A DNA stretch of 64,000 nucleotides from Planctomycetaceae bacterium (GTDB lineage: Bacteria > Planctomycetota > Planctomycetia > Planctomycetales > Planctomycetaceae). Both the position numbers and the translations under genes were made by a program. Location: assembly GCA_019636285.1 (NCBI GenBank), contig JAHBXV010000030.1, positions 1 through 64,000 of the forward strand, in the 5' to 3' direction. Below the pieces are notes generated by a model that was not told where the DNA came from, made no database searches, and was given only the letters and a program-made list of their open reading frames with translations. This document shows positions 21,255 through 62,361 of this stretch, in pieces (the stretch's first letter is position 1; every line of letters starts with the position of its first letter).

Positions 21255-21363
21255 CGAGCGATTCGACAGGTCGTCTTGCGAAACCTGTTGAAGAGACCGT
21301 ATTTTGAAGTGATCCTTCGACACGTGCGGCGGGCGCCGTGCCGCGGGTTTCCCATCCCAGTTG

Positions 21364-23376
21364 ATGGCCGTCATGAACTCAGACAATGGAGCATCGCCAG
21401 CCGGTCCGGACGCGTTCCTTTACGCGCAGGCGGGATCGCTGGAAGGAGAAAGCTTTGAGCTGTATCGGGGCCAGGTCGCCTCGATCGGCCGTTCGCCGAC
21501 AAATCGAGTGGTTATCGCGGACGAAGTGTGCAGCCGCAGCCATTGCGAGGTCTTCGATCGCGGCGGTCGATGGATTCTGCGCGACTTGGGGAGCCGTAAT
21601 GGAACCCGATTGCAGGGAATGCTGATCGACGGCGATACAGAACTGCGATCCGGATCGATCATCCAGCTTGGTTCCAACGTCTTTGAGTTTCGGCTGTCGA
21701 AGCACGTCGAGAACCTGAACGACACGACGCTCTCTCCGCGGGACACGCTGGACGAGCCCGATACGGGCCTGTTGTCGGCTCCCGAGATTCTGCACCGCGC
21801 CCGGGAGCATCGGTACGGCTTCCCGAATACGGAAACGCCCCCGACCGACCGGACGAACCTGGAGCTGGCGCGTCTCTATCGCCTCGCGCTCGACATGGGC
21901 GGGGCGACCGACGTCAAGCAGTTGTCGCAGATCGTCCTCGATGCCCTCTTTTCCGTAACGTCCGCGGATATCGGGGCCATCTTGCTGGGCGATGTCGATC
22001 GGCAGGCGAATCCGTCGCGACTGGCGATTGTCGCGTACAAGTCGCTGAAGGAACTCCCCTATCAGCGGGTCTCCGATTCCCTGTCGCGAATCGTGCTGGA
22101 AGACCGCGAAGGCGTGCTGGCACGCGATGTCTCGCTGGATCGGCGACTGGCCAACCGCGACAGCCTCGGAGAGTTGAGTGCCGAGAGCGTGATCTGCGTT
22201 CCCGTGTGCAGCAATGGCCACGATCGCGTCCACGGCGTCGTTCATTTGTACGCGACCAACTCGGACAACCCGCTGGAGAAGGAAGACCTGGAGTTTGTTC
22301 TCGCGCTCGCCGATCAGTTCGCCGTCGCGCTCGTGAATCTCGAGAGCCGCGAACAGCTCAAGGCGGGGCTCGTGCAGGCGGAATCGGAAAATGAAACTCT
22401 CCGCGAGCAGCTCGATCAGCAGTTTCGCCTCGTGGGGGAAAGCCCCGCGATGGTTCGTCTGCGAGAGATGATCCAGCGAATTTCCGGGACGGATGCGACG
22501 GTCCTCATTCGCGGGGAGAGCGGTGTCGGGAAGGAACTGGTGGCGCGGGCGCTGCACAACGGCAGTTCGCGACGCGATGGTCCGTTCGTCACCATGAACT
22601 GTGCCGCGCTGAGCGAAACGCTCCTCGAAAGCGAATTGTTCGGGCACGAGAAGGGATCGTTTACCGGGGCAACCGCGCGGAAGATCGGTAAATTCGAACA
22701 GGCCCATCGCGGGACAATCTTCCTCGACGAAGTGGGCGAAATGAGCGCGGCCATTCAGTCGAAGTTCCTGCGGGTGCTGGAAGGGCATCCGTACGAACGC
22801 GTCGGCGGTGGAACTCCCGTAAAGGTCGATGTTCGCGTGCTGGCTGCTACGAATCGCGACCTGGAAACATCGGTCGAAGCCGGAGAGTTCCGGAAGGACC
22901 TTTATTTCCGTTTGCAGGTCGTCGAACTCGACGTCGAGCCGCTGCGGTCTCGTCAGGACGACATTCCTCTGCTCGCCCATCATTTTCTGCAACGGTTTGC
23001 CCGCAAATCGGGACGGCCGCCGAAAGCCCTGGCTCCGTCGGCACTCGCAACGCTGAAGGCTTACCACTGGCCGGGCAACATTCGCGAGTTGCAGAACACG
23101 ATCGAGCGGGCCGTGATTCTGTCGCCCGAAGAAGTCATTGGTCCGCAGGACATTCAGCTCTCGGCCCTGGGGGCCGGCGCGCCGCCTGTGCCGGTCGCGA
23201 CGCCCTCGGAAGAGTTCCAGGTGGAATCGCTCGAGGATCTGGAACAGCGCCACATCCTGGCGACGCTCGAGCACACCGGCTGGAACAAGTCGCAGGCCGC
23301 GCAGCTTCTGGGGATCGAGCGGTCGACGCTGGATCGGAAGCTGAAGCGGTATGATGTGGAGCGGCCGCGGCGCTAA
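21364..23376 (+). CDS. Sigma54-dependent transcriptional activator with FHA and GAF domains
   Basis: 670 aa (ATG 21364, or ATG 21373). An FHA domain (residues ~25-105; [33 protein letters not shown]) implies recognition of phosphothreonine, usually from a Ser/Thr kinase. A GAF domain (~165-330) follows, then a short coiled coil. The AAA+ sigma54-interaction domain (~360-590) has Walker A GESGVGKE (384-391), the GAFTGA loop as GSFTGA (431-436), Walker [11 protein letters not shown] and an R-finger region. A Fis-type HTH ends the protein ([24 protein letters not shown]). Kinase and targets are not encoded nearby. A sigma54-like site precedes csrA in this window (53220-53236), but no direct link is shown. 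Confidence 0.95.
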
Positions 23377-52236: not shown

Positions 52237-52257
52237 CCCTGATCAAACAATAAAAAA

Positions 52258-52287
52258 CCCGGCAGCAAATGCCGCCGGGCTTTTTTC
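52258..52287. terminator. Rho-independent terminator, bidirectional
   Basis: A 10-bp stem with one mismatch (52258-52267 with 52270-52279) has an A-run on one side (52251-52257) and a T-run on the other (52281-52286). It serves recQ and the convergent Tyr-rich gene. Confidence 0.85.
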
Positions 52288-52358: not shown

Positions 52359-52817
52359 TTAGCGGAAGAACGGGCTGTTGTTGGACGCCGGCTGCGAATA
52401 CCCCGACGGGTAGTAGTTCGGCGACGGCGTGTAGGGCAGTGTCTGATAGTTCGGCGAGCCCTGATAGACCGGCAGCGTCCGGTAGTTCGTCGGGTACGTC
52501 GTGGGATAGGTGTTTCGGTACTGGGTAACCGGCACCGTGCCGTAATTGGGACGGTACGCGTTGTACCCGTAGCCACTGTTCGGCGGGCAGTACCCGTTCA
52601 CACAGCCACCCGGCAGAACTCCATAGTTCGCCCCGTACTGGCCGTTCGTCTGCGGAAAGCACTGGCCGTTCGCGCAGTTGGCGTAGCCGGTGTTGTAGCT
52701 CGAACCGCCAAACCAGTTCAGCGGATTGAGCATCCGCAGATCCTGGGCCTGGGCATTGCCCGAGGCAGCCAGCGAAGCAACGGCGACGAGCGAAGCGGAC
52801 AGCAGATTCTTGGTCAT
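52359..52817 (-). CDS. Small secreted Tyr/Asn/Pro-rich protein
   Basis: 152 aa. Signal peptide (LLSASLVAVASLAASGNAQAQ), then MLNPLNWFGGSS and a low-complexity region rich in Tyr, Asn, Pro, Gly and Thr (GYANCANGQCFPQTNG, GYNAYRPNYGTVPVTQYRNT, YPTTYPTNYRTLP). Four Cys lie in two pairs (CANGQC, CVNGYC). It looks like a surface or matrix protein; Tyr-rich repeats and paired Cys could cross-link. Not assigned to a family. ATG 52817. Confidence 0.72.
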   Translation of the reverse strand: MTKNLLSASLVAVASLAASGNAQAQDLRMLNPLNWFGGSSYNTGYANCANGQCFPQTNGQYGANYGVLPGGCVNGYCPPNSGYGYNAYRPNYGTVPVTQYRNTYPTTYPTNYRTLPVYQGSPNYQTLPYTPSPNYYPSGYSQPASNNSPFFR

Positions 52818-53219
52818 GGCATGGTCTCCAGAATCGGGCCCCATGGGGGCGAATCAGTCCCGAAATTCGTCGGGGCGAGTGACCCACCAACAGTGGCGGG
52901 CGATGCACTCACTCTGATGCACGCGCCGTGCCAAAAGTTGTCTTTTCGATTCTTCTGAGTGTCGCGTTAATGTGGCATACCTCTTATGTCATGAAGAGAA
53001 ATATCTCACCTGGGCCGCGAATCGCCAGCGTCTTTGCCGGATTCGTAGAGTCTGCCATGCCAGGCGTCGTCCGCGATTTGTCAGAATGACAAAGGTGAGT
53101 GTTGTCAAAGATACACCATTGAAAGTTTGGTGTCTCAGGGGTTGGCCGTAAACTTTACGCAGATTTCCTTCCATTCGAATCAACTGGATTTCGAGTGATA
53201 TTTCGCAGCTTTTTCAGCC
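52818..53219. other. Gene-free region upstream of csrA promoter
   Basis: About 400 bases with two small hairpins (53077-53093, 7-bp stem; 53110-53136, 8 pairs with one mismatch). AT content is higher than elsewhere. No reading frame is convincing. Confidence 0.45.
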
Positions 53220-53236
53220 TTGGCACGAGGCGTGCG
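53220..53236 (+). promoter_or_regulatory. Candidate sigma54 (-24/-12) promoter of csrA
   Basis: TTGGCACG-AGGC-GTGCG against the consensus TTGGCACR-N4-TTGCW: the GG and GC elements have the right spacing, with mismatches at the first T of TTGC and the last W. Predicted transcription start is near 53247, where the leader hairpin begins. A sigma54 activator is encoded at 21364-23376. Confidence 0.45.
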
Positions 53237-53246
53237 ATACAGTTCT

Positions 53247-53313
53247 CCTGTGCTCGATGAACAATGTTGAGCACAGGACGCTCGCCGGAACAAGACAAGG
53301 AAAGGAAGTCGCC
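53247..53313 (+). promoter_or_regulatory. csrA leader: hairpin and four GGA motifs (putative CsrA autoregulation)
   Basis: A 9-bp perfect stem (53247-53255 with 53269-53277) and 13-nt loop are followed by GGA at 53276, 53287, 53299 and 53304. The last two overlap the Shine-Dalgarno region AAGGAAAGGAAG. CsrA binds GGA motifs and in other bacteria represses its own mRNA this way; here it is inferred from sequence only. Confidence 0.5.
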
Positions 53314-53541
53314 ATGTTGATCCTGACGCGAAAACGAAACGCAACGATCCGAGTGGGTGAAGAGGTTGTTATCCATGTGATCCAGACGGCTAAGGGGAGT
53401 GTCAAGTTGGGCATCGACGCCCCCTCCCATGTCCGGATCCTGCGTGGTGAACTCGATGTCCGCAGCGGAGCCTCCGCGGAAGACTGCGAGCCGGTAGGTG
53501 TCTGCGGTGAGACAGGTGCGGACTGGCAGGTTGTGTCTTAA
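53314..53541 (+). CDS. csrA: Carbon storage regulator CsrA (RsmA)
   Basis: 75 aa homodimeric RNA-binding regulator. MLILTRKRNATIRVGEEVVIHV (N-terminal strand with R6-R8-like basic residues), IQTAKGSVKLGIDAPSHVRILRGEL match the family. The C-terminal ~20 residues (ASAEDCEPVGVCGETGADW) extend beyond the usual length and are not conserved-looking. ATG 53314 has AGGAAG 7 bases upstream; a longer frame to 53257 is rejected. The S41 protease gene follows after 76 bases on the same strand. Confidence 0.95.
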   Translation: MLILTRKRNATIRVGEEVVIHVIQTAKGSVKLGIDAPSHVRILRGELDVRSGASAEDCEPVGVCGETGADWQVVS

Positions 53542-53617: not shown

Positions 53618-55579
53618 ATGAACAACTGGAATGACGGACGTCGTGCCGTGGTGAGCTGGTTGATGATGGGGACCACGGTTGCCCTGGCCGTGGTCCTGGC
53701 CGCTACGTCGAGCGAGGCACAGTCGGGGTGGAACAACTCTGCTCCGGGAACGTCCGGTTGGTCGAACGACTTCGGCCCCAGCCCGGATGATTACCGAAGC
53801 CGCGGCGGAGCGGTGGACGACTTCCGGTCGAATGGCTGGGACATGCCCCGCTACGAGAGCCGTCCGCAGCGCCCGTCTCCTTCGTACGGAGACGACTATG
53901 GCTGGGACATGGGCCAGCAGCGATACCCGATGGGCAATTCGGGTATGCAGGGACCGATGCGCGATCGGCTGAGTCGCGGTCGGAACCTGGACGACTACGA
54001 CCTGTTGCGGGACTATCAGTCGCGGCGGCCGAGCTACGACCGCAACGACCGCGGCTACCCGAACGACCCCTGGAATTCGGACTGGAACCAGCAGAATCCG
54101 CGTGACCCTTGGGCGAACCCCGCGCCGCGGCCCATGAACCCGACCCGCCCGGTTGCTCCGGCTGAGCCGACCGTTCGGGAGATCATTGCCAAGCGATACG
54201 GTGACCCGAAGGTCGCGAACCTCTTGCGGCAGCTTTCGCCGCAAGCCGCCGAAGCCCTGTTCGTGGAAGTTTCCCAGTACGTCGATGGTCGTCACGTCAG
54301 CCCCGCGCCGTATGCCCAGCGTGTCGCCAAGGCACTCGAAAACATCGCCGTGGCCGCCGAAGTGACCGAGTTCCAGAACCTGTTGCAAATCCGGCCGAAC
54401 GGCCAGCAGTTGCAGAGCCTGTACCAGGGCCTGCGACAGGTGCCGGTCTCGTCGGCCCAGAACATGAACGATGCCCTCGGGATGATGCGTCAGGCTGGTC
54501 AGATCGCGTCGCAGACCGCGAATATTCCGCCAGCCGTCGTCACCCTCGAATTCGTGTATGCCTCGATGGAGTCGCTCGACAAGTTCTCGATGCTGGTCCC
54601 CGCCGAGCTGAGCGGTACGGCCAAGACCGGCCTGGAGAACAACTTCGTGGGAATTGGCGTGGAGGTTGAAATGGCCCCCAACGGACTGAAGATCGTCAAG
54701 CCCATCACCGGGGGTCCGGCTCACCAGGCCACGTTGCAGCGAGGCGATGTGATCTCGGCGGTGAACGGCCAGCGGTTGGCGGGAATGTCGATGGACCAGG
54801 CCGTGGCGCTGATTGCCGGTCCGGCCGGTACGCAGGTGTCGCTCGAACTGCTGCGAGGCAACATGGTCGGGGACATCACGCTGACCCGTCGGCAGGTGAT
54901 CGTAAATAGTGTTGCCGAAGTGAAGATGCTCGATCCGCAGCAACGCATCGGCTACATCAAGCTGGAAAAGTTTGCCGAAGCGACGACGCGGGAACTGGAT
55001 GCCGCCTTGTGGAGCCTGCACAACCAGGGAATGCAGTCGCTGGTGATGGACCTGCGAGGCAATCCTGGTGGCTTGCTGACGACGGCGATTGACGTCTCGA
55101 ACCGGTTTCTGCCCCAGGGAACGATTGTCTCCACGAAGGGCCGAAACACGCAGGACAATTCGCTGGAACAGGCTTCGTTGCAGAATACGTGGAAGGTGCC
55201 GCTGGTGGTGCTGATCGACAGCCACAGTGCTTCGGCCAGCGAAATCTTCGCGGCTGCGATTCAGGAAAACGGTCGAGGGTTGATCGTCGGCGAAACGTCG
55301 TACGGCAAGGGGACTGTCCAGACGCTGTTCCCGCTGCGGACGGCTGGTGCGGCGCTGCGGCTGACGACCGCCAAATTTTACGCTCCGAGTGGACGGGAAA
55401 TGGCCAGCGTGGGGGTGACGCCCGACCTGCGAGTTTCCGGTCTTCAGGGGCCGAATGCCGACACACTGGCCTTTCAGGCCGCCGTGTCGGCCATCAATGA
55501 CCCCCGGATGCAGCAATTCCAGAACGTCGGCTTCAAGACGGGCGACGCCAGCAAGGTTCTGACCATCGAGGAGACGTAA
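53618..55579 (+). CDS. S41 (C-terminal processing) peptidase with low-complexity N-terminal region
   Basis: 653 aa. Signal peptide or anchor (VVSWLMMGTTVALAVVLAATSSEAQ), then ~170 residues rich in Asp, Arg, Tyr, Pro, Gly and Asn (DDYGWDMGQQRYPMGNSG, RNLDDYDLLRDYQSRRPSYD), a helical region (~190-340), a PDZ domain (FVGIGVEVEMAPNGLKIVKP ... GDVISAVNGQRLAGMSMDQA) and the S41 catalytic domain. Ser is in SHSASASEIFAAAI and Lys in TSYGKGTVQT, the Ser/Lys dyad of CtpA/Prc. Periplasmic protease; substrate unknown. ATG 53618 is preceded by AAAGGAAT. Confidence 0.92.
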   Translation: MNNWNDGRRAVVSWLMMGTTVALAVVLAATSSEAQSGWNNSAPGTSGWSNDFGPSPDDYRSRGGAVDDFRSNGWDMPRYESRPQRPSPSYGDDYGWDMGQQRYPMGNSGMQGPMRDRLSRGRNLDDYDLLRDYQSRRPSYDRNDRGYPNDPWNSDWNQQNPRDPWANPAPRPMNPTRPVAPAEPTVREIIAKRYGDPKVANLLRQLSPQAAEALFVEVSQYVDGRHVSPAPYAQRVAKALENIAVAAEVTEFQNLLQIRPNGQQLQSLYQGLRQVPVSSAQNMNDALGMMRQAGQIASQTANIPPAVVTLEFVYASMESLDKFSMLVPAELSGTAKTGLENNFVGIGVEVEMAPNGLKIVKPITGGPAHQATLQRGDVISAVNGQRLAGMSMDQAVALIAGPAGTQVSLELLRGNMVGDITLTRRQVIVNSVAEVKMLDPQQRIGYIKLEKFAEATTRELDAALWSLHNQGMQSLVMDLRGNPGGLLTTAIDVSNRFLPQGTIVSTKGRNTQDNSLEQASLQNTWKVPLVVLIDSHSASASEIFAAAIQENGRGLIVGETSYGKGTVQTLFPLRTAGAALRLTTAKFYAPSGREMASVGVTPDLRVSGLQGPNADTLAFQAAVSAINDPRMQQFQNVGFKTGDASKVLTIEET

Positions 55580-55650: not shown

Positions 55651-56043
55651 GGGGAACCCGTTTCACCGCTTCAATGAGGCGAGCCAGGACCGGGTTACGG
55701 AAGCTTTGCGGGCGGGCCTTAATTGGTTGCCAATGTCCACTTTGCGACGATCAAGAATTGTACGATCGGCAAGAGATTTTCGTCTTATCTGTTTCACGGA
55801 TTCGCCGATGTAAGCCTTGGTGAAAATTGACCACTGAAACCTACCTCCTGTAGTTCAGGTAGTGAACGTAAGCCATCAAGCCGCGGCAGGGCTCAAGAAA
55901 CTCGGGGCATAGTCGGTCCAGAGCGGGCCGATCTGACGACACAGAGACCGATGAGCAACACCCCGTATCGCGAAGCGATTTGATGCTCAATGAAGCCGGT
56001 ATCAGGCTCGTCAATTGGTGGACAACCAGGAAGAAGTCGCGAC
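55651..56043. other. Intergenic region upstream of the hybrid kinase
   Basis: About 390 bases with no convincing gene. The kinase frame is open back to 55990 (ATG). A GGAAGAAG ribosome-binding stretch at 56029-56036 favours the GTG at 56044. No other signal was seen. Confidence 0.4.
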
Positions 56044-58632
56044 GTGTCCAAGACTGAGTCATCCACAAAGGTCGCCGAGCACCTTGCAAAAGCGCGCGGC
56101 AACCAGAGTGGAGTTCGGACCAAACTGGGACACCGCTGGCGGAGCGTGCTCGCCGCGCGCGAATCAGCCGTCGCATTCGGGTTGCTATTTGCGCTCTCCA
56201 TGCTCGTGCTGGTCACGTTCGATCAAGCGGAATCGAACGATGCCGCGACGGCGAACTCCGGCTGGACGCCGATTCTTGCTGCCGGCTTTTCCATGGTGGG
56301 TGCTCTGATTGCGGCCTGGGGACTGCGGCCCTCGACTTGGGAAATTGTTCCGACGACAGCCGGCCACGGTCTCGCGATATTTCCCGAAGGCAGCGTGCCG
56401 CCAGTTTGCGAGCCCCTGCGGCAACTGGCGGACGCGGAAGTCCGCGTGCTGTCCGTGCTCCTGCAAAGCAGCGAGTCCGATCGCTTCACCAGTCTGCTGG
56501 ACGAAGTGCTCGAGCTGCTGGACAGTCCGAATGGAATGATTGGTTACATTCGCGAAGCTGACGGCGCGCTGGTTTGCCCCGCCTTCACGGGGGACGTGTA
56601 CCCCAAGGCCATGGTGGAAGACGGCTGTGCCATCATTCCGCGAGCCATCTGGGGTGGACTGTGGGGGCGCGTGCTGACCAGTGGGCGCAGCGAGTACAAG
56701 AACGGCCATCTCGTCGTCCCGGATCAGCATCTTCCCATTCGCAGGGCCATGGCTGCCGCGATCATGGCCGACAATCGCCTCATCGGCTCGATTGTTGTTG
56801 CCAACCGCGATGTGGATTACACCGATTGCGATCTGCGGATGCTCGATCGGATCGCCGCCATCCTCGGGATGGTGCTGGGACGCACGCTGGAACGCGACGT
56901 GGCGCTCGCCGAATTGCGAAACGCGAATCGACAATTGGCGATCAGCGAGGCACGACTGTCCCAGGCCCTGGTCTGCGGACAGGGAGGATTCCTGGACTGG
57001 AACCCCGCGAATCAGCGTCTGGTCTTCTCGAACGAATTTCTCGGACTCCTGGGCTACTCCAGGGAAGACGCGCCAACTGGTCCTGTCGCGCTCGATGACC
57101 TGTTGCATGCGGATGATCGCGAGCGCGTTGCCTCCCTGGTCGCGAAAGCCCGTGAAGAATGGGTTCCCCTGGAGATTGATTGTCGGCTTCGCCGCGCGGA
57201 TGGCACCGTTCGCTGGTTCCAGGTACGCGGACACCATGTGTTCGCCGACTCGGAAAGTACGACGCGGCTGCTTGCCGTGGCGTTCGATATGACCGACCGG
57301 AAGCTGATCGAAGAGGTGCGGATCGAGCACCTCGATGAAATGGAAGATGCCTGGAGCCGCCTTTCGCGTCAGGCGGAACTGCTGGAAGAGCAGGCCGTCA
57401 GCCTGGCATTGGCGCGCGACCGCGCCGAGGCGGCGGATCAGGCGAAAACCGTGTTCCTCGCGAACATGAGCCACGAAATCCGCACGCCGTTGACGGCGAT
57501 TCTCGGATACGCCGACCTGCTGCCAGAGATGATCGACCTCGAGAACCAGGACGAGGAAGTTCGCGAAGGCTTGCAGAGCATCGCGACCAACGGGCATCGA
57601 TTGCTCGAGGTGATTGGCGACATTCTCGATCTGACCGACGACCAGTCGAAACTCGGCCAGCCCTCGTTGTCCCGGCAGCAACTCGATCTGCGGACAATTC
57701 TCGATTCGGTCGCCAGTGCCTACAGGGTTCGCGCGCAGGAGAAGAACCTGAAGTTGTCCGTCGTCTGGTCGCCCGACACGCCGGCCCGCATCATCAGCGA
57801 CGGGCATCGGCTGCGCCAGATTCTCATGAAACTGGTCGACAACGCGATCAAATTCACCAATCACGGCGAGATCGTCATCGAGACCGGGCTGCACGACAAC
57901 ACGCTGGAGATCGCGGTCCAGGACACGGGGATCGGAATTCCCGCCGAATTCTGCCGCCGGCTCTTTCAGCCGTTCCTGCAAGCGGACGGTTCCACCACCC
58001 GGCAGCATCAGGGGATGGGACTGGGGTTGGTCCTGGCCCGGCAGTTCGCCGAGGCGATTGGCGGTCGTGTCAACGTCGTGTCGCGCAGCGGCGCCGGCAG
58101 CAAATTCATACTGACACTTCCGGTGCGGGTCGGTGGCGAAACCAGCGACTCCCGTTCGGTCAATTCATCGACGCTGCCCGCCATCGGCTCGGGAGCACAC
58201 GGCCACGCGGCGCGAGACGTCCAGTCCGAGGAATCCCTGTCGGGACTTCATATCCTGATTGCCGACGACATCGAAGCGAACCGTCGCTTTCTGGGATTCG
58301 CGGCGGAAAAATCGGGGGCGACGGTGGCGACGGCCACAGATGGTCGCGACGCGGTTGAGCGCGTTCAGTTCGCCGCTTCCCAGGAACGGCCGTACGACGT
58401 GATCTTCATGGACCTCCATATGCCCGTTCTCAACGGCATCGAGGCCATTCGCCAATTGCGGGAGAATGGCTACGGCGGCGCGATCATCGCGCTCTCCGCC
58501 GATGCTCAACTCGCCACGCGCCAGAAGTGCCTGGAAGCGGGCGCCGACGAGACGTTGACCAAGCCGATTAGCCGCGCGGATCTTGTTCGCCACTGCCGCG
58601 AACTTCTGAACCGCGTGCGAGTCAACGCCTGA
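56044..58632 (+). CDS. Hybrid sensor histidine kinase (2TM-GAF-PAS-HisKA-HATPase-REC)
   Basis: 862 aa from GTG 56044 (ATG 55990 is an alternative). Two TM helices (AVAFGLLFALSMLVLVTF and WTPILAAGFSMVGALIAAWGL), a GAF domain (~120-280), a short coiled coil, a PAS domain (~305-415), a coiled coil, then HisKA with the phospho-His at 477 (FLANMSHEIRTPL). HATPase_c follows (DNAIKFTNHGEIV, DTGIGIP, GMGLGLVLARQFAEAIGG) and a C-terminal receiver with phospho-Asp 790 (VIFMDLHMPVLNG; LTKPISRADL). No HPt or output partner lies nearby. The sensed signal is unknown. Confidence 0.95.
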   Translation: MSKTESSTKVAEHLAKARGNQSGVRTKLGHRWRSVLAARESAVAFGLLFALSMLVLVTFDQAESNDAATANSGWTPILAAGFSMVGALIAAWGLRPSTWEIVPTTAGHGLAIFPEGSVPPVCEPLRQLADAEVRVLSVLLQSSESDRFTSLLDEVLELLDSPNGMIGYIREADGALVCPAFTGDVYPKAMVEDGCAIIPRAIWGGLWGRVLTSGRSEYKNGHLVVPDQHLPIRRAMAAAIMADNRLIGSIVVANRDVDYTDCDLRMLDRIAAILGMVLGRTLERDVALAELRNANRQLAISEARLSQALVCGQGGFLDWNPANQRLVFSNEFLGLLGYSREDAPTGPVALDDLLHADDRERVASLVAKAREEWVPLEIDCRLRRADGTVRWFQVRGHHVFADSESTTRLLAVAFDMTDRKLIEEVRIEHLDEMEDAWSRLSRQAELLEEQAVSLALARDRAEAADQAKTVFLANMSHEIRTPLTAILGYADLLPEMIDLENQDEEVREGLQSIATNGHRLLEVIGDILDLTDDQSKLGQPSLSRQQLDLRTILDSVASAYRVRAQEKNLKLSVVWSPDTPARIISDGHRLRQILMKLVDNAIKFTNHGEIVIETGLHDNTLEIAVQDTGIGIPAEFCRRLFQPFLQADGSTTRQHQGMGLGLVLARQFAEAIGGRVNVVSRSGAGSKFILTLPVRVGGETSDSRSVNSSTLPAIGSGAHGHAARDVQSEESLSGLHILIADDIEANRRFLGFAAEKSGATVATATDGRDAVERVQFAASQERPYDVIFMDLHMPVLNGIEAIRQLRENGYGGAIIALSADAQLATRQKCLEAGADETLTKPISRADLVRHCRELLNRVRVNA

Positions 58633-60699: not shown

Positions 60700-61198
60700 A
60701 ACGGCCATTTCAGGCGTCTTAGTCTCGTAAGACAGACTAGCGCCGGGGCGCGACCGTTCTATCACGCATCGGCCGAATTCGCCGTACAATCGTCACGATG
60801 ATCGCCTCTGGCGCGTCGTTCGATCCACTGAATTCTCTTGCGCGGGGGGTCGATACACCTCTGTGCCGGATGATTCGAGGGGACGGCGATCGTCACGATC
60901 GTCTTGAGAATCGACCAACTACGGATGGAATCGACCGGCACCCGACGAACCCACATTCACTGCCGCACTCCTGAAGTTACCCGTCGTCGGAGCGGACGAG
61001 TGTTTGAACCCACACCTTGAATCGACATCTGACGATCCCTCCCGCCCATCCGGCGGCAGGATCCGTGCTTTTCCGCAGTCGCCGTCGTCGTTCACCCCCC
61101 CTCGGAACGGCGGCGGCGATTTTTTCTTGCGCGGAACAAACACGCGCCGGCGTCTCCGACTGACCCGTTTGGGAGGTTGTCAAGGTTGAGTGTTCGGG
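60700..61198. other. Gene-free region downstream of purA
   Basis: About 500 bases. Two small hairpins follow the purA stop (60696-60713 and 60716-60733) and may terminate it weakly. Short frames on both strands (for example minus 60919-61143) look protein-unlike. No repeat-family member was seen before the R3 half at 61199. Confidence 0.45.
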
Positions 61199-61222
61199 TG
61201 TGCCACTGGCTCTGCCAGTGTG
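61199..61222 (+). repeat. R3 half element
   Basis: GTGTGCCACTGGCTCTGCCAG then TG; single hairpin arm of the R3 family. Confidence 0.7.
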
Positions 61223-61295
61223 CCTTTATTCCAGATTTCTCGGACCTGGACTCCGCCTCACTCAATGTTGAACAAGGCAGATTCTCGGGATTCCC

Positions 61296-61520
61296 TGACC
61301 GCGAAGCGGTCAAAGACGGTAGCCGTGGGTCGCGCAGCGCACCCACGGTAAACAGAGACATCTTTTTTTCTATCGACCCCCAGAGGGGGTCGAAGATACT
61401 CGAGCGCTTCTGCGACCCCCGCAGGGGGTCGATAGCCAAGAGAGAAGGTCCATGCTTTCCGTGGGTGCGCTGCGCGAGCCACGGCTACCATCTTCGATGC
61501 CTCCGGCATCGGAGGCATCA
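61296..61520. repeat. About 225-bp nested-palindrome element, family R4 copy 2
   Basis: Same block order as 45061-45283: TGACCGCGAAGCGGTCAAAG, CGCGCAGCGCACCCACGG, central CGACCCCCAGAGGGGGTCG and CGACCCCCGCAGGGGGTCG arms, CCGTGGGTGCG, CCACGGCTACCATC and the CCTCCGGCATCGGAGG end. It lies just downstream of the TPR lipoprotein gene. Confidence 0.85.
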
Positions 61521-61554
61521 AAGCCTCTCGATCGAGGGCTCGATCCCAGCGAAT

Positions 61555-62361
61555 TCAGCGCTGTTCGCGAACGCCTGACGCCTGGCGGACGGTATTTACC
61601 TGCCCCTGGCGCACAACGGCCGTATTCGGACGGCCTTCCTTCAGACTGGCCAACAGTGCCTTCGCCGGCAGCAGGTCAGCCTTGATGGACAACGCCTTCT
61701 GCAGGTGCTGTTCGGCCAAGCCGGTTTGACCCTTCTCGTTGTAAATGAAAGCGATGTTGTAGTGCGCTTCCGCCGCGCCGACAGCCTTCTCCAGTTCCTG
61801 GTAAGCCGACTGCGAATCGCCGGAACGCATCAGCACGATGCCCAGTTCGAAGCGATACACCGCGTTGCCGCCGCTCGCATCGGTCGCGCGGCGCAACTGG
61901 TCAATTGCTTCCGGCCATTTCTGTTGCGCGGCGTACCATTGTCCATACGCGGCGAGCACGCGCGCGTCGCCAGGGAACGCGGCTTCGGCGCGAACCAGAT
62001 GTTCTTCGGCTGCCGCCATCCGCCCGTTGAGCTGGTCAATCCGCGACAACCCCAGAAGCGCGTCGAGCGATTTCGGATTGTGCTCGAGCACCTTCTGATA
62101 CGAGGCCCGCGCTTCGTTCGGCTGTTGGATCCGCTCCTGCCACCGGGCATAAGCCAGGTGAACCTTCTCCGGATTTTTGAGCTTCGTATTCGAAGTGAAG
62201 CTTCCCGCGCCCGGTTGAGACGTCGCTTCAACCGGTTTGTCACGCTGACCCAATGAGGCCAGATCGATGGTTTTGCAACCCGTCGCCACGAAGCACGCGG
62301 CTGTCAGCAGGACGCACCACCGGGCCGTTCGGGGCACGGCATTCGAGGGAGACGTCTTCAT
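61555..62361 (-). CDS. TPR lipoprotein
   Basis: 268 aa. Lipobox LLTAACFVATGC, a short linker, then five or so tetratricopeptide repeats (AYARWQERIQQPNEARASYQKVLEHNP, GRMAAAEEHLVRAEAAFPGD, QQKWPEAIDQLRRATDASGG, SGDSQSAYQELEKAVGAAEA, GQTGLAEQHLQKALSIKADL; each quoted in part). Membrane-anchored scaffold similar in style to the TPR lipoproteins near Tad/pilus or outer-membrane assembly genes; no partner is proven. The AAA ATPase gene lies upstream on the same strand, 60 bases away, so the two may form an operon. Confidence 0.85.
   Translation of the reverse strand: MKTSPSNAVPRTARWCVLLTAACFVATGCKTIDLASLGQRDKPVEATSQPGAGSFTSNTKLKNPEKVHLAYARWQERIQQPNEARASYQKVLEHNPKSLDALLGLSRIDQLNGRMAAAEEHLVRAEAAFPGDARVLAAYGQWYAAQQKWPEAIDQLRRATDASGGNAVYRFELGIVLMRSGDSQSAYQELEKAVGAAEAHYNIAFIYNEKGQTGLAEQHLQKALSIKADLLPAKALLASLKEGRPNTAVVRQGQVNTVRQASGVREQR

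Follow-up and report, generated by a model that had tools for sequence, protein, structure and literature searches.

A csrA gene lies behind a sigma54-type promoter conserved across a planctomycete family, with a divergent promoter, dyad sequences and a leader hairpin in the same region

Which promoter, and which signal, sets the supply of one particular csrA gene in a planctomycete whose genome (6.37 Mb in 113 contigs) contains 11 csrA-domain matches, a single rpoN (PF04552 match, 213.5 bits) and 25 matches to sigma54 activator domains, about 16 of them full-length? The gene, csrA1 (positions 53314-53541, forward strand), lies in the stretch of 64,000 nucleotides that was analysed as a whole, referred to here as the window. 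Its predicted product of 75 aa is placed in the CsrA protein family by the curated cut-off of PF02599 (62.5 bits against a cut-off of 27), and it falls below the cut-off of the stricter equivalog model TIGR00202 (57 vs 70.1). Located 3' of csrA1 is a gene on the same strand for an S41 C-terminal processing peptidase with a PDZ domain (53618-55579; PF03572, with TIGR00225 prc above cut-off). Comparison of 20 wide loci revealed csrA directly 5' of the S41 gene in every case, and no other steady neighbour was found among the window genes tested in these loci. This pairing is thus a matter of sequence and conservation, and the S41 gene is probably co-transcribed with csrA1. An upstream ATG at 53257, in frame and within the leader hairpin described below, would lengthen csrA by 19 codons (53257-53313); the alignment of orthologs begins at the later ATG, and a gene caller may therefore misplace the csrA start. 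Further downstream of the S41 gene, a hybrid histidine kinase (GAF, PAS, HisKA, HATPase and receiver domains) is encoded at 55990-58632, and no such neighbour was found in 20 relatives. Additionally, similar peptides recur in overlapping short ORFs at 61092-61580 (e.g., ALRDPRLPS and ALREPRLPS), which suggests a small repeated DNA element.

The initial annotation had proposed that csrA1 is controlled by a sigma54 promoter. A -24/-12 box of the form GG-N10-GC, TTGGCACGAGGCGTGCG, was indeed found with correct spacing at 53220-53236 on the forward strand; it scores 11/13 and predicts a transcription start at about 53247. Within the 64-kb window, a pattern with one mismatch allowed gave nine matches compared to a shuffle mean of 4.5, a number reached in five of 100 shuffles; since this is only mildly unusual, comparison with relatives was needed. 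The same csrA was traced in relatives via orthologs of the S41 peptidase. Eighty-eight loci were tested, the source genome included, and 83 of these had csrA, representing 40 genera of one planctomycete family, which we take to be the Planctomycetaceae; five loci at which csrA was not found (L034, L173, L201, L208 and L209, with L201 being a 132-base contig end) were excluded before counting. A box of at least 9/13 was present in 80 of the 83 csrA orthologs, at -86 to -139 from the start codon, and a box of at least 11/13 was present in 69; the expectation over 83 loci, with neighbouring DNA of the same loci as background, was 2.9 for scores of at least 9, 0.71 for at least 10 and 0.10 for at least 11. 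In the genus-weighted columns over -50..+80, two conserved blocks stood out, TTGGCACR and YGCWWW, and the remaining positions showed no comparable conservation. It should be noted that GG and GC were obligatory in box selection, which makes their conservation partly circular, and that this applies less to the other letters, for which at least 9/13 was needed. The strict pattern TTGGCACGN4KTGC occurs nine times in the 6.37-Mb genome vs two matches for the reversed control, and two of the nine matches form a divergent pair in the intergenic region upstream of csrA1. Taken together, conservation among orthologs and the single rpoN strongly support the predicted sigma54 promoter, and these data confirm that a sigma54-type box lies upstream of csrA1 and is conserved in nearly all orthologs examined in the family. 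Two of the nine strict boxes (L046 and L047) precede genes whose products have a pilin-like segment at the N terminus.

The three misses were all three csrA orthologs of a single genus, g4 (L055, L162 and L167), in which TTGGCACAC is kept and the GC at -12 is absent; the promoter has possibly been lost or changed in this genus. At five csrA loci of other families, one box of 11 and two of 10 were found and two loci had no box, and for this reason conservation is claimed for one family only. Both boxes of the window also read GCACG-N3-CGTGC, as they would if the sequence were the binding site of a palindromic regulator and not a promoter; however, the palindrome occurs in merely 8 of the 83 orthologous boxes, whereas the TTGGCACR and YGC letters stay, which makes such a site scarcely credible as an explanation of the box. 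As a conserved feature of the csrA box, the palindrome was rejected on the same count.

A hairpin with 9-bp arms had been described at the predicted start of the csrA1 transcript, and exact arms are present at 53247-53255 and 53269-53277, forming a 5'-terminal leader hairpin on the forward strand (53247-53277) that begins at the predicted start. In the minimum-energy fold, the stem grows to 12 pairs, with -21.3 kcal/mol for the leader and a z of -4.5 for this sequence itself. When 45-nt windows were averaged by genus, the mean z was -1.41 (sem 0.21) at the predicted start, -0.94 five bases earlier and -1.23 five bases later; outside the leader hairpin, z was near background, both upstream (-0.22 to -0.49) and from +50 (-0.14). 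The structure signal across genera thus peaks at the predicted 5' end, which bears out the described position and supports the start position too, and the data support a leader hairpin that is kept as structure and not as sequence. These results also bear on the possibility that an overlapping sigma70- or ECF-type promoter gives the main transcript, with the sigma54 box being minor. The csrA gene of E. coli has several promoters, and ATACAG follows the box in the source genome, both of which would suit such an arrangement; however, the aligned region holds no conserved -35/-10-like pair, its conserved parts being the -24/-12 blocks and the A/T just after, and the hairpin signal sits at the start predicted from the sigma54 box. 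A main transcript from a sigma70- or ECF-type promoter is regarded as unlikely.

The leader had further been described as GGA-rich and autoregulatory. GGA motifs are located at 53276, 53287, 53299 and 53304; the first contributes its GG to the base pairs of the stem, and the other three are clear of the hairpin. Two of them (53299 and 53304) fall in the Shine-Dalgarno region (53299-53306, forward strand), which is a candidate CsrA site. In the 18-nt window that directly precedes the start codon, GGA was found in 94% of the 83 csrA genes (1.23 per window of this size), compared to 37% of 115 control ORFs (0.46 per window), the starts of the controls being rough. Outside the Shine-Dalgarno window the enrichment was weak (1.51 vs 1.21 expected; p 0.024 by genus). 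Among the 83 orthologs, 37 had GGA in the loop of a predicted hairpin, compared to 22.2 expected. In E. coli, csrA autoregulation involves a leader with four GGA motifs, at least one of them over the Shine-Dalgarno sequence (PMC7652899), and the csrA1 leader is alike in both respects. It differs in that the loop of its stable 5' hairpin contains no GGA, unlike the GGA in a hairpin loop of the E. coli type; moreover, E. coli csrA responds to sigmaS (PMC7652899), while csrA1 has a sigma54-type promoter and a putative CsrA site. The GGA-rich leader thus stands, with four motifs, two of them on the Shine-Dalgarno sequence, and enrichment in orthologs; CsrA feedback on its own leader is plausible and weakly supported.

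A second sigma54-type -24/-12 box, TTGGCACGGCGCGTGCA (52918-52934, reverse strand; a 12/13 match), faces that of csrA1 and precedes a gene for a small exported-looking protein rich in Tyr, Asn and Pro (52359-52844, reverse strand; 161 aa, with a signal-like N-terminal segment), which had no match in Pfam or NCBIfam. Of the 83 loci, 22 (from 12 of the 40 genera) have a divergent box at the corresponding position, and the distance from the csrA box to the divergent box was 285-332 bp in the 16 loci measured; the pair is in this way likewise read from sequence and conservation. The divergent ORF was considered at 16 divergent-box loci. At 13 of these it was read directly, and each product was exported-looking with an abundance of Tyr, Gly, Asn, Pro or Cys; the other three were the source genome (own translation used), L050 (taken from a homolog) and L179, which was left unassigned. 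Homologs of the divergent protein itself were present at the same place in 3 of the 20 wide loci. Divergent sigma54 promoters that share enhancer sites are known, for example from nif genes. The csrA1 region has in common with such pairs the facing -24/-12 boxes and a dyad between them; it differs in that the paired genes encode a global RNA-binding regulator on one side and an exported protein on the other.

Between the two boxes lies an exact 15-bp dyad, TTGTCAGAATGACAA (53078-53092), whose centre is 135 bp from the csrA box and 151 bp from the divergent box, about midway, and which is a candidate activator (enhancer) site; a weaker second copy, TTGTCAAAGATACAC (53102-53116), has two mismatches and may be due to chance. 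With at most one mismatch, this dyad, TTGTC-N5-GACAA (dyad A), was found in 22 of the 83 csrA upstream regions, from 8 genera, while its half-sites at other spacers (0-11) were found in 0-4 of 83. A second dyad, CGGCA-N5-TGCCG (dyad B), was found at the same stringency in 36 of 83 regions and 19 genera, vs at most 7 of 83 for its half-sites at other spacers (0-11). The distance to the box was nearly fixed per lineage for both, being mostly 141-142 or 169-170 bp for dyad A, and often 67-96 bp (e.g., 71, 77-78, 87 and 90) or 189-195 bp for dyad B. Dyad A or B was present in 50 of the 83 regions (21 genera), both were present in 8, and neither, at up to one mismatch, in 33. Most of the dyads in these 50 regions lie at lineage-fixed distances, and they are candidate sites for a sigma54 activator, which would be expected to bind roughly 70-200 bp upstream. 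The three g4 orthologs that lack the -12 GC still have dyad B, at 77 bp. Motif searches with an EM script yielded motifs that shifted, and these were taken as leads only.

Alternatively, the dyads could be sites of an ordinary repressor or other regulator and not of a sigma54 activator. Some copies of dyad B are only 9, 14 or 25 bp from a box, closer than a classical enhancer would be, and the occurrence of both dyad types together in 8 of the 83 regions likewise favours an ordinary regulator; against this, dyad A at up to one mismatch lies solely 135-181 bp upstream of the box, in the usual enhancer range. We consider an ordinary regulator a serious contender, though not the reading that we prefer, which is that dyad A is a putative enhancer. 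Because its proximity to some boxes is odd for an enhancer, dyad B is left without an assigned role. One CGGCA-N5-TGCCG palindrome, at 52250-52285 between recQ and the exported-protein gene, lies within a terminator-like hairpin with a T run, and B dyads are therefore not regulator sites in every case.

The dyads and boxes were also sought beyond this region. Exact dyad A was not over-represented genome-wide (four copies vs four in the control), and the three further exact sites had no box of at least 11/13 within the 3-kb stretch around them. Dyad B occurred at 55 sites vs 31 in the control; among 51 site instances, some counted twice, a box of at least 11/13 within 350 bp was found only at a second csrA and at one small exported-protein gene. 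The latter (L303, C50:42550-42581) encodes a small exported-looking protein rich in Gly, Tyr and His; its 11/13 box is preceded by an exact dyad B at a distance of 9 bp and by an A-like dyad at 85 bp. The second csrA (L004 / L302, C48:178899-179191), whose product is 70% identical to that of csrA1 over 47 residues, has a 12/13 sigma54 box, and an exact copy of dyad B precedes this box by 25 bp. An upstream box of at least 11/13 was present at two of the eight csrA paralog loci of the source genome that were examined, and at neither of the two csrA paralogs on contig C103. In relatives, six second csrA genes were examined; all had boxes of 10-11, and three had dyad B with at most one mismatch. 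A search for dyad-plus-box patterns in 120 genomes of the family matched some csrA loci, and its counts, judged by eye and untotalled, were no higher than those of the reversed control; no regulon was defined for this reason.

With regard to the activator, the initial annotation had pointed to one with an FHA domain in the same window, and hence to phospho-signal control of csrA. The protein is real by its domains (21361-23376; FHA, GAF, sigma54-activator and Fis-type HTH domains), and its place in the same window, 30 kb away, its fitting domain kind and the presence of orthologs in most family members searched could make it the dedicated activator of csrA. However, the ortholog is 0.28-1.6 Mb from csrA-S41 in all five single-contig relatives (G001, G004, G007, G013 and G018), so that a shared window is no evidence of a link; G040, which belongs to another family and has no csrA at its S41 locus, likewise has an ortholog, and the protein is one of about 16 with full activator domains in the genome. 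A dedicated role for this protein is thus very unlikely, and the proposed signal input to csrA was not supported.

A sigma54 link of csrA was reportedly described for Pirellula sp. strain 1 by Studholme and Dixon in 2004, as relayed by a 2025 paper. In that paper, csrA (COG1551) was enriched among predicted sigma54 targets in Planctomycetia (PMC12316311), and predicted sigma54 promoters upstream of csrA are common to that work and ours. The earlier evidence, in the part available, is a class-level enrichment, whereas the csrA-S41 locus, the divergent exported-protein gene, the dyads and the 5' hairpin are features described here. No publication on any of these four was found in the open-licence literature, judged by titles, openings of abstracts and selected passages. 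On these sources, control of csrA by sigma54 has been published before for Planctomycetia, and what is new is the breadth of conservation and the architecture of the region.

Altogether, we propose that a sigma54 (RpoN) promoter at 53220-53236 would transcribe csrA1 and the S41 gene, starting near 53247. Since sigma54 polymerase needs an activator, the supply of csrA1 would be gated by an enhancer-binding protein, bound most likely at the dyad at 53078-53092, and from this dyad the protein could activate the divergent sigma54 promoter in front of the exported-protein gene as well. The strong hairpin at the 5' end of the transcript would protect that end, we infer, and CsrA may damp its own translation through the GGA sites at the Shine-Dalgarno sequence. 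This explanation as a whole (sigma54 promoter with activator gating, dyad enhancer, divergent partner, 5' hairpin and possible CsrA feedback) appears to us likely to be correct. A wider proposal, in which a sigma54-to-Csr relay operates in the Planctomycetaceae and one dyad-recognising enhancer-binding protein switches on csrA1-S41, the second csrA and a set of exported Tyr/Gly-rich proteins, and in which csrA mRNA has a 5' hairpin as its cap and is subject to damping by CsrA, is speculative and in our judgment doubtful.

Planctomycetes have many csrA copies, here 11 matches, and many sigma54 activators, and both groups are poorly understood. With its promoter box retained in 80 of 83 orthologs, one csrA copy would be under activator-gated control across the family, and the exported protein encoded next to it may be a hint that the switch has to do with the cell surface. 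The dyads, being fixed in position, may serve as DNA bait in the search for the activator and its signal.
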